From positions 1 to 47,377 of the forward strand of contig VGZY01000015.1 in assembly GCA_016872355.1 (NCBI GenBank): DNA of 47,377 nt. The letters are read 5' to 3'. The stretch is from SAR202 cluster bacterium (lineage in GTDB: Bacteria > Chloroflexota > Dehalococcoidia > Lucifugimonadales > VGZY01). The notes below the pieces were generated by a model, which did no database searches, was not told the origin of the DNA, and was given only the letters and a program-made list of their open reading frames with translations. Each line of letters opens with the position of its first letter. Within the stretch, counting starts at the first letter, position 1. This document shows positions 37,224 to 40,595 of the stretch, piece after piece. Both the position numbers and the translations under genes were made by a program.

Positions 37224-37272
37224 CGCCAGTGCCGGGTCCCATCCTCCCTTCGTGTCGCGAAGCCAGCGGTAA

Positions 37273-37536
37273 CCGTACCCTTCCACCTTCATCTCATACC
37301 TCGCCAGCGGCAGGCCCGTCGTAACGCAAGATACGGGCTTCTCCGCTAACCTGCCCACAGGTGATGGCCTCCTCGCTTTTTCCACGCCGGACGAGGCGGC
37401 GCTGTGTATCGAGGCGCTGAACGACGGATACGAACGCCGCTGCTCCGCTGCCCGCGAGCTGGCCGTGGAGCATTTCGACGCGCGGAAAGTACTCGCCCGC
37501 CTGCTTGAGGCAGCGCTCAATCCCGCTCCAGCGTGA
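37273..37536 (+). pseudogene. 3' remnant of a glycosyltransferase gene
   Basis: Between an in-frame TAA (37270-37272) and the TGA at 37534-37536 lies an 87-codon frame with no start codon at its head. It reads YLASGRPVVTQDTGFSANLP, GDGLLAFSTPDEAALCIEALNDGYERRCSAARELAVEHFDARKVLARLL. This strongly resembles the C-terminal end of family 1/4-like glycosyltransferases as I remember them. The first 300 or so residues are absent, so it is a truncated relic. The other strand can also be read open but is less protein-like. Confidence 0.65.
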
Positions 37537-37548
37537 TACCGTTCCCGG

Positions 37549-38499
37549 CTACCCCTCCTTGTCGAAGCGGCCTATCTCCTGGGCGTACTTCTCCGCCCCA
37601 AAGACTTCCTTCTTGTTAAGCCAGCGACTTACGTGCGGGTAAATCGCCAGGCTCCGGTCTTCAAGCGGCACCCTCACAGGGGCCTGGTTGCGCCTGGCGG
37701 ACTCCCGCATGGCAAGCGTAATCTCCAGCACCTTGCGCATATTCCCGCCGCTGCAGCGCAGCTCAATGCCCTTCTCAATGGCGTCCACAATGGACTGTAT
37801 GTCGTCCATCTGGCGCTTGCCCGGGATCATGCGTCCCTGCGAGTCGCGCTTGCGCTCTGCAGCTATTCCAGGCGCAAAATACCCCGGCGCCTCCTCAAGC
37901 TCGTCAAAGCGGTTTGTCTCCTTGCCGGTCTTCGATTTCCATACACGGAACGTGTACCAGTCCGTAAAGAAGAAGCCCTTGGTGCAGATGACCTCGATGC
38001 CTTTTTTGCTGCTGGAGTAGTAGTCCACGTAGGCTTCGATTCCGTTCCTGAAACGGATGAGCCCGCCCATGCCCTGGTCATAGTTACTGTAGGGATCGTC
38101 GCGCACCCAGCCGGTAAGCCAGTCCACGTCCGAGTCCCACGCGAACATGCGGGTGACGCTGAGGCCCTGGCACCCGCCGCCCGAGATCTCATCCGTCGCC
38201 TGATACAGGTGAATGGAGCGCACTTCGCCAAGGTCGAACGGCTGAGGGGTGTGGGAGGCGTCCTGCCCTGCGGGAGGCCGCATCATCGCCCTGGCCTGCC
38301 ACACCTGCTCGAAGTTGCGGTAGGCATCCCCGGCTGAGAAGTGGATGCCGCGGCTACGGCACTCGTCCACCATCGCATCTGCATCGGAGAGCCTCGCGGC
38401 CATGGGCTTCTCACAGAAGATCGCCTTCATTCCGCCGATGCGCGCGCTCTCGATGACCACTTCCGGGTTGGGCTTCACCGGCAGTAAGGCTGACGACAT
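37549..38499 (-). pseudogene. Gfo/Idh/MocA-family oxidoreductase lacking its N-terminal NAD-binding half
   Basis: The readable homology starts at VKPNPEVVIESARIGGMKAIFCEKPMAARLSDADAMVDE, with the catalytic CEKP lysine, and continues through VRSIHLYQATDEISGGGCQGL and SRWLNKKEVFGAEKY to the stop at 37549. Family members are normally 330-390 residues with a GxGxxG Rossmann fold at the front. Here the first 80-100 residues are missing, and instead the sequence runs into the start of a plus-strand gene at 38498. An ATG at 38499 exists but would give an enzyme unable to bind its cofactor. I infer truncation by insertion of the neighbouring cassette. Confidence 0.75.
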
Positions 38500-38842
38500 G
38501 CATGACGTGCGACTCTCCCGGCGTAGATTTCTCATAACCAGCGTGGTGGTAGGGACGGGAGCCGTGCTCACGCGTTTAGTACCTCCTCTCGTGTTTGGGA
38601 AGGTTCCAGTCGCGGAAGCAACATGGTGTGGTAGATTTCACGAATGTGACTTCTGGTGCGACGCTCCATATTTCGTATCTTCGGGCTGCGCCAACCTCTG
38701 TAGCGCAGCATGCCCACCAAATGACGAAGCCTACTATGAGATATATTCCGTTTGGCGGACGATACCCCCGACAACAACCTGTAATGAGGACTTGTGGTGC
38801 GGGAACATGACATGCAAATGGTGCGGTCTCTGTCCCTGTTGA
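38498..38842 (+). CDS. Tat-exported 12-cysteine protein, resembling a shortened methylamine dehydrogenase light chain
   Basis: The 114-residue product begins with a twin-arginine signal (SRRRFLITSVVV at 7-18, hydrophobic stretch to about 34, likely cleavage after AEA at 41). The mature 73 residues hold exactly 12 cysteines (44, 50, 54, 64, 68, 72, 95, 101, 106, 109, 112, 114) and five tryptophans, ending CGLCPC. Methylamine dehydrogenase light chains (MauA) are Tat-exported with six disulfides. The local motifs CDFW and CPP...W (Trp86) here recall CDYW and CPPG...SW there, from memory. The part of MauA that carries the second cofactor tryptophan is absent. Followed 34 bases later by a DUF4367-like gene and then a MauE-like gene, supporting a disulfide-rich exported protein. 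The function is unknown. Confidence 0.75.
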   Translation: MHDVRLSRRRFLITSVVVGTGAVLTRLVPPLVFGKVPVAEATWCGRFHECDFWCDAPYFVSSGCANLCSAACPPNDEAYYEIYSVWRTIPPTTTCNEDLWCGNMTCKWCGLCPC

Positions 38843-38876
38843 TTGATTAGCCGGAAGTCAAGTGTATGGAGGCCAT

Positions 38877-39413
38877 ATGACCAACGAGAGAGTACTCATC
38901 AATCCTGTAGATACTTTCGCAACCAACCACAGTCACGGGAAATCGAACCGGCCGATGCCCAAGGCTACAGCGGTGCCCCGCCGTGAATATAGAGAGGTAT
39001 CTCTAAGTGACGCTAGAACTCGTCTGCCGAGTCTTTCATCTCCAGGCTATGTTCCGGATGGATATGTCCTTTCGAGAGTCAGCATTGGTCCAAGCTCAGC
39101 GCAAGTTGTTATGCTCACATACACAAAGCCTGGTTCTGGCACATTGCAGATACAACTAAATCTCCCCATAAAGCCTCAAGGAGTTGATATTAAGAACGGC
39201 TACTTCGAGGCGGTTTCGTTTGGTAGAGTGGCAAACGCCTTCATGGTCCGCGGCATATGGGCCAGAGGCTCCAGCGGCCCGGATCTGGAATGGGAAACAG
39301 GCAACCATCTCCAGCTTATCTTTGAGCGGGATGGGGAAGTCGGGGTTATATTGGCTTTCCCGGCCACCGAGTGGCCAGAAGACGAAATCCTGAAAGTTGC
39401 AGCATCACTTTAG
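38877..39413 (+). CDS. DUF4367-like domain protein
   Basis: From ATG 38877 (GGAGG four bases ahead) this encodes 178 residues. The first 60 are polar and probably disordered. The rest reads like a compact beta domain: PGYVPDGYVLSRVSIGPSSAQVVMLTYTKPGSGTLQIQL, then GYFEAVSFGRVANAFMVRGIWARG, and W-ETGNHLQLIFERDGEVGVILAFPATEW, ending EDEILKVAASL. The overall pattern (a P-GY-L opening and a closing helix of the type EELLKIAESL) is that of DUF4367/RsgI- or MucB-like sensor domains. No signal or membrane segment is evident. It is the middle gene of the cassette, so perhaps a regulatory or accessory factor; this is an inference. Confidence 0.65.
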   Translation: MTNERVLINPVDTFATNHSHGKSNRPMPKATAVPRREYREVSLSDARTRLPSLSSPGYVPDGYVLSRVSIGPSSAQVVMLTYTKPGSGTLQIQLNLPIKPQGVDIKNGYFEAVSFGRVANAFMVRGIWARGSSGPDLEWETGNHLQLIFERDGEVGVILAFPATEWPEDEILKVAASL

Positions 39414-39435
39414 GTACATAACGGAGTGCGCAGTC

Positions 39436-40005
39436 ATGATAATGGGGGTCAGACTCCTGTTAGCAGTTGTGTTCCTTTCTTCTGGCGTGACCAAACTAGT
39501 CGCGCCGCGTCAGTTTGCGCGGGACGTACAGCAATATCGTATCTTACCGCCTCGGGCTTCAAAGGGCTTCGGGCTCATGTTGCCATTCGTTGAGATCGCA
39601 GTGGCGGTGAGCTTCTTGACGGGCTACTTTACTTCCTGGGCCGAGATGGTCGCAGCCTTCCTAATTGTTTGCTTCATCACGGCAGTCGCGACGGCGATGC
39701 GCAAAGGTCTTAACCTATCGTGCAGTTGTTTCGGTTTGCTCTACCGAGAACGCGTAGGCTGGATAACACAGGTAAGAGATTTCTTCCTTCTGTTATTAGT
39801 GGCCAGCGTGTACTTCTTTGAAAAGGAGCCTAGGACACTCTTTGGTATGTTTAGAACTTTGGATGAGCCGCTTTCAATTGCAGGAATGGGCCTAAGTCTT
39901 GCGGCCGTTGTCTTTGTTGGATATGTTTTTCGCATCTCAGTTAAGGGAACCCGTCGGCGGCTCGAACGCGCGCGCGAGCATGGCTTTTCGTTAGCCTCAG
40001 ACTAG
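39436..40005 (+). CDS. MauE/DoxX-family redox-associated membrane protein
   Basis: This 189-residue inner-membrane protein has four or five helices, for example GVRLLLAVVFLSSGVTKL, GFGLMLPFVEIAVAVSFLTGYF, AEMVAAFLIVCFITAVATAM, FFLLLLVASVYFF and GMGLSLAAVVFVGYVF. The opening LLLAVVFLSSGVTKLVAPRQFARDVQQYRILP and the cysteine motif LSCSCFGLL between helices match the MauE family, which is required for methylamine dehydrogenase light-chain maturation and probably works in disulfide chemistry. ATG 39436 has GGAG nine bases upstream. It is the third gene after the Tat-exported cysteine-rich protein, an obvious functional match. Confidence 0.8.
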   Translation: MIMGVRLLLAVVFLSSGVTKLVAPRQFARDVQQYRILPPRASKGFGLMLPFVEIAVAVSFLTGYFTSWAEMVAAFLIVCFITAVATAMRKGLNLSCSCFGLLYRERVGWITQVRDFFLLLLVASVYFFEKEPRTLFGMFRTLDEPLSIAGMGLSLAAVVFVGYVFRISVKGTRRRLERAREHGFSLASD

Positions 40006-40074
40006 AGAGACATCCGAAGGGAGTCCCTTCTAGCGCCCTCGGGTGCAAGACAAGGGAGGCGTCCTTGCCAGTGC

Positions 40075-40102
40075 CACGGTGTTTAATGCTGGGAACACCG
40101 TG
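40075..40102 (+). terminator. Hairpin downstream of the MauE-like gene
   Basis: CACGGTGTT and AACACCGTG pair perfectly over nine bases with a 10-base loop, followed by TTACTCTC. It is 70 bases past the MauE-like stop and may end cassette transcription. A weaker GAAGG/CCTTC stem lies at 40016-40030. The rest of 40006-40159 shows no gene. Confidence 0.5.
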
Positions 40103-40159
40103 TTACTCTCAGCGTACTGTTTTCGCATGAATTGACAGCCTTGAACATCCTGCTCTATA

Positions 40160-40354
40160 TCAACGATCCCAGCCTCTACCGCGTAACCCAAGCTTCGCTT
40201 TGATGTGCTTCACATGTGTTTCGGCGGTCAATAGGCTGATTCCCAAGTGTAGGGCGACCTGCCTGCCGGTGAGGCCTTGTCGAAGCAGACCAAGAACTTC
40301 TTGCTCCCGCGGCGTAAGGTTTTCGTGACCTGGAGAGCGGCCATCCTCGTCCAT
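40160..40354 (-). CDS. Solo LuxR/GerE-type helix-turn-helix protein
   Basis: The 64-residue protein is almost entirely one DNA-binding domain: LTPREQEVLGLLRQGLTGRQVALHLGIS, then TAETHVKHIKAKLGLRGR, the classic LuxR C-terminal four-helix fold. No receiver or autoinducer domain precedes it. AAGGA lies seven bases before ATG 40354. It faces the cassette tail to tail and is the last gene of the less GC-rich segment. A role in controlling the cassette is suggested only by proximity. Confidence 0.8.
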   Translation of the reverse strand: MDEDGRSPGHENLTPREQEVLGLLRQGLTGRQVALHLGISLLTAETHVKHIKAKLGLRGRGWDR

Positions 40355-40595
40355 GATGTAGTCCTTTCGGCCTAGTACTTATATACCAATTACGCTAAAC
40401 CCCTCGAAATGGTTTCTCTTATACGTCTTTCGTCCCTTCTTCGGCCAATTGGCAAGCTATTTCGTATCTGTGCTGGAATTACCGGCATACGCCGTGTGAC
40501 CGCCGAGCGGCATTTGCCCTGCGCTGCCTTCCTGCCATACACTACTCGTTGCGTTTATCCGCGTGTCGTCGAAACACGTCGCAACGGGTGCTGCA

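Follow-up and report, generated by a model that had tools for sequence, protein, structure and literature searches.

A putatively acquired gene cassette encoding a predicted Tat-exported, cysteine-rich peptide beside a MauE-family protein in a SAR202 cluster bacterium

What does a gene for a MauE-family membrane protein serve in a stretch of Chloroflexota DNA that chiefly carries ribosomal and housekeeping genes? We addressed this question in a SAR202 cluster bacterium, for which 47,377 nucleotides of contig VGZY01000015.1 (hereafter the window) were analysed. Three neighbouring genes on the forward strand, P0001 (38498–38842), P0002 (38877–39413), and P0003 (39436–40005), are separated by gaps of 34 and 22 bp, in agreement with the coordinates, strand, and tight spacing given in an earlier, sequence-only reading of the locus. 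That reading regarded the cassette as a stand-alone relative of the methylamine dehydrogenase (MADH) light-chain system. We consider it somewhat more probable than an even chance that the cassette was acquired and makes one exported disulfide-rich peptide (P0001), together with MauE as its oxidation partner and P0002 as its binding partner.

The first gene encodes a predicted Tat preprotein of 114 aa, P0001, with the putative twin-arginine motif RLSRRRFLI at its N-terminus followed by a hydrophobic stretch, and with exactly 12 Cys in residues 42–114, the 73 aa of the presumed mature part; leader and cleavage were assigned by inspection of the sequence. Both features had been recognised before and are plain in the translation, and the chance of 12 Cys in 73 residues is about 2e-12 (binomial, background Cys of 0.87% from seven neighbouring proteins). 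P0001 belongs to no family in Pfam or NCBIfam. Among 250 genomes of the order it has one good homologue, P0006 of genome G249, which is also its closest (E = 2.8e-6 over residues 6–112), and a scan of the genome contig collection with P0001 alone returned zero matches. Further matches in genomes G183 and G196 contain internal stops, and two were rejected as chance, one on contig C54 of G000 (sialidase-like region, wrong frame, stop) and one in G147, where other genes occupy the site. The AlphaFold2 model of P0001, built from three sequences, has a pLDDT of 38.5.

The third gene encodes a membrane protein of 189 aa, P0003, that contains the sequence LSCSCFG, including the CSCFG motif. Its earlier assignment to MauE was confirmed by the Pfam profile PF07291, which it matches with 96.2 bits (E = 2.5e-27) against a curated cut-off of 27. 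The pairing of an exported Cys-rich peptide with a membrane protein of the DoxX superfamily is shared with the copper-binding bufferins, whose clusters couple exported Cys-rich precursors with DoxX (PMC12452194), and P0003 also weakly matches HvfX, a maturation family (E = 0.02). P0001 could accordingly be imagined as an exported, metal-sequestering peptide. However, bufferins have Sec rather than Tat leaders, no MNIO/DUF692 or DUF2063 gene was seen by eye in or beside the cassette, and P0003 contains a CxCFG motif and is matched much better by PF07291, so that metal sequestration is unlikely.

MauE has been proposed as a thiol-oxidoreductase partner of the MADH light chain, MauA, which itself has a Tat leader and 12 Cys. 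P0001 was accordingly suggested to be a stand-alone, light-chain-like redox protein whose quinone cofactor would derive from Trp or Cys, Trp86 and a nearby Cys being named as candidate crosslinked residues. Its linkage to a MauE-family gene, its MauA-like combination of leader and Cys number, and the order mauE-mauD-Cys of related cassettes elsewhere, comparable to mauEDA, would all agree with this identity. The sequence comparisons argue against it: at E ≤ 1, the light-chain profile PF02975 matched neither P0001 nor P0013 nor any of nine further MauE-linked Cys proteins, its best match across the genome (E of 1.15) was unconvincing, and a sequence profile search of the PDB at E ≤ 10 returned no MADH chain. 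Trp86 aligns to a Ser in P0006, the mature part of which has a single Trp, and the Trp pair of the MADH light chain is not conserved in the shorter core of the cassette protein. Nor was a heavy-chain (mauB), mauD, or mauG gene seen when the window gene list was inspected by eye, as had been stated before. By profile and by Trp pair, P0001 falls outside the light-chain family, and its identity as a recognisable MADH subunit is not supported; we give a light-chain-like redox protein a very slim chance. What holds of the earlier proposal is an exported multi-Cys protein tied to MauE and to disulfide maturation, while the light-chain and cofactor identities are not supported. Our best inference is that P0001 acts like MauA as a client of MauE.

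The middle gene product, P0002, has no evident signal peptide and is therefore predicted to be cytosolic. It had been described as DUF4367-like, for which its own match to PF14285 is weak (E = 0.029, 15.3 bits, below the cut-off of 22.1), whereas P0012, an extra gene of the P0002 type in a sister cassette, exceeds the cut-off (E = 2.6e-05, 25.1 bits). The AlphaFold2 model of P0002 has a mean pLDDT of 74.5 and is well modelled from residue 36. A Foldseek search with this model gave no match at E ≤ 0.001. The top structural neighbour is the C-terminal domain of RseB (Z = 10.6, 2.7 Å over 89 residues), and MucB is also among the best. The type VI secretion system immunity protein Tsi3 aligns with Z = 8.7 (3.5 Å over 101 of 120 residues) and is followed in the ranking by human Mog1 and PsbP, and the Mog1-like effector chaperones EagT6 and SciW score Z of about 6. 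From the model, we read P0002 as probably having a fold of the Mog1/PsbP/RseB-C type that is used for partner binding; the fold itself gives no function. The P0002 family occurs in four of 247 genomes of the order and is strong only in the three genomes with a cassette (G000, G052, and G249); the weak match in G062 lies beside a TlpA-like thioredoxin. At another locus (L085, 1237–2759), a distant P0002-like lipoprotein adjoins a TlpA/ResA-like thioredoxin and a cytochrome c-like gene.

The first rank of RseB raises the possibility of an envelope-stress or signalling module in which P0002 is an RseB-like regulatory sensor and P0001 a redox-sensing ligand. Such a module would be in keeping with the surroundings of a second cassette copy on contig C38 of the same genome, upstream of which inspection by eye showed what look like an anti-sigma factor and the end of a sigma factor. 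Yet RseB is periplasmic, whereas P0002 has no visible leader, the fold match spans only 89–92 residues, and no sigma or anti-sigma gene was seen at the window copy, in G249, or at locus L018. The chance that the cassette is a signalling module is slim.

A gene-neighbourhood survey showed that all three genes recur in two other assemblies and two of them in a third. The string in G249 (locus L013) consists of P0006 (putative Tat leader, 12 Cys), the P0002-like P0009, the above-mentioned P0012, which is a lipoprotein with two related domains, and the MauE protein P0007. When the MauE alignment was used to scan 11.3 million genome contigs, the G249 contig was found again, together with loci L018 and L019. 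L018 is a contig of 4.6 kb, labelled Desulfobacterales by its metagenome bin, with the order MauE, Tat protein (16 Cys in the mature part), and P0002-like protein; because the three genes stay together there in a different order, their linkage outlasts rearrangement. L019, from genome G052, carries two P0002-like genes and MauE, and no Cys gene was seen on this contig, at the end of which MauE sits. Within the order, specific MauE matches were found in three of 250 genomes, again G000, G052, and G249. The mature core of P0001 is 36% identical to P0006 and 28% to P0013, the latter value being indistinguishable from that of shuffled composition, and MauE identities are 37–47%. A variable mature core next to a conserved MauE is the pattern to be expected if a constant maturase serves a changing effector.

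The position of the cassette points to acquisition. It lies within an insert of 3.37 kb (37224–40595) between xerC and aroQ, which are neighbours at a distance of 15 to about 520 bp in 14 of the 29 aroQ loci of relatives, in most cases preceded by topA and followed by pepP-efp. The GC content at third codon positions (GC3) is 0.51–0.57 in the cassette genes and 0.85–0.89 in the flanking core genes. At the left edge of the cassette, a gene for a Gfo/Idh/MocA oxidoreductase (37549–38490, reverse strand; GC3 0.81) is truncated at its 5' end: paralogues, of which the genome has many, and homologues mostly align from about residue 25–27 on, within longer open frames, and the Pfam match starts only at position 86 of the 120-position profile. 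On its right side, the insert contains an open reading frame of 64 aa (40160–40354, reverse strand) that comprises only a LuxR/GerE helix-turn-helix domain (GerE, E = 2.8e-12) and has a cassette-like GC3 of 0.57; a tie between this frame and the cassette is unproven. A contig misjoin behind the broken oxidoreductase gene was considered and is disfavoured, because the flanks topA-xerC and aroQ-pepP-efp match the gene order of relatives. There are no convincing terminal repeats at the cassette edges and we therefore claim no transposon. Given the foreign composition and the insertion into a conserved gene string, horizontal acquisition appears to be the best reading.

An acquired cassette might also be a degenerate remnant that is no longer expressed. 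The truncated oxidoreductase gene at its left edge is compatible with decay, as is the copy on contig C38 (L007, 5000–6624, minus strand), in which the Cys-rich gene is frameshifted mid-gene, the P0002-like gene is interrupted by an in-frame TAA, and MauE has no in-frame start upstream; this copy is apparently decayed, or affected by assembly errors. In the window, the start codon of P0001 falls just within the junction with the truncated oxidoreductase gene and its leader is shorter than those of homologues, for which reason a promoter or part of the N-terminus may have been lost and this copy may be silent. Against degeneration, all three window genes are intact and a good ribosome-binding site (GGAGG) precedes P0002, which makes a mere remnant quite unlikely.

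We thus return to an exported peptide with two dedicated partners. P0001 would leave the cell through the Tat pathway, and its Cys residues would be oxidised to up to six disulfides, either at the membrane or outside it; MauE would be the thiol-oxidoreductase partner in the membrane, in this case without MauD. Oxidation after export does not fit easily with the usual preference of the Tat pathway for folded cargo. P0002, probably cytosolic, would be the dedicated binding partner of P0001. The weakest step, to which we assign somewhat less than an even chance, is that the released peptide acts outward in a bacteriocin-like manner and that P0002 is its chaperone or immunity protein. The resemblance of the P0002 model to Tsi3 and to the Mog1-like Eag/SciW chaperones, in addition to RseB, is consistent with this role. 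Against it, RseB (Z = 10.6) outranks Tsi3 (Z = 8.7), and among the cassette genes there is neither an exporter nor a protease nor a member of any known bacteriocin family.

A pairing of MauE with Cys-rich precursors is not wholly new, because the decRiPPter study placed mauE, in one case together with mauD, beside precursors with at least eight Cys in three candidate families of Streptomyces, which have no other mau genes and for which modification of the precursors by MauE/MauD was proposed (PMC7794033). The locus described here agrees with that pattern in having a 12-Cys precursor beside mauE and no other mau genes at the locus. It differs in its occurrence in Chloroflexota, the twin-arginine leader, the DUF4367-like third gene, and the lack of mauD, and this Chloroflexota version with Tat leader and DUF4367-like gene is new. 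Apart from the decRiPPter and bufferin papers, no relevant literature was found that connects MauE to the Tat pathway, disulfides, or halocins.

To place the cassette in a wider context, 57 MauE-like loci, drawn from genomes of the class (393) and of the phylum (400), were inspected up to 1.5 kb to each side for small open reading frames with RR or RK, a hydrophobic stretch, and then at least nine Cys in 100 residues, with 30 DoxX loci as control. Such Cys-rich frames with an RR signal were present at 15 of the 57 MauE loci and at one of the 30 DoxX loci, where the lone frame looks like a chance frame; these counts show an enrichment but do not amount to a clean test, as the rule was set after some MauE matches had been seen and related genomes were counted separately. 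Several MauE loci have the order mauE, MauD-like redoxin, and Cys protein. Ten MauE-linked Cys proteins had only weak or Tat-signal matches in Pfam. No viral contig with MauE was found, and the one plasmid that carries it, from Opitutaceae TAV5, has an annotated neighbour gene that is not Cys-rich. That Tat-exported, MauE-oxidised, disulfide-only effector peptides move throughout the phylum in cassettes, together with a chaperone or immunity protein of the Mog1 fold, is a tentative proposal that we regard as doubtful rather than probable. The role of MauE has so far been argued mainly from the MADH cluster, and the many small, mutually independent candidate substrates next to MauE, whether or not MauD is present, make a role as dedicated disulfide catalyst directly testable. 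They also point to a reservoir of exported multi-disulfide peptides, as yet unexplored, in a phylum with few cultivated members.

Beside MauE at L069 (2041–2847, minus strand), L072 (525–1331, plus strand), and L077 (1973–2752, plus strand) lie genes for longer proteins that have an RR signal and, at the C-terminus, a Cys-rich domain; an ABC transporter ATPase is also present at L069 and L072. These proteins are reminiscent of halocin C8; a profile search for halocin C8 membership of the L069 protein gave no match. A Tat-exported Cys-rich effector is the feature that the cassette would share with halocin C8-type peptides, and P0001 itself is unlike halocin C8. Loci L027, L028, L036, and L037 contain mauE-mauD-Cys-rich strings with a Tat protein of 300 aa in front, which in three of the four lies beside a small acyl-carrier-like open reading frame, and L027 and L036 each have two tandem Cys-rich paralogues.
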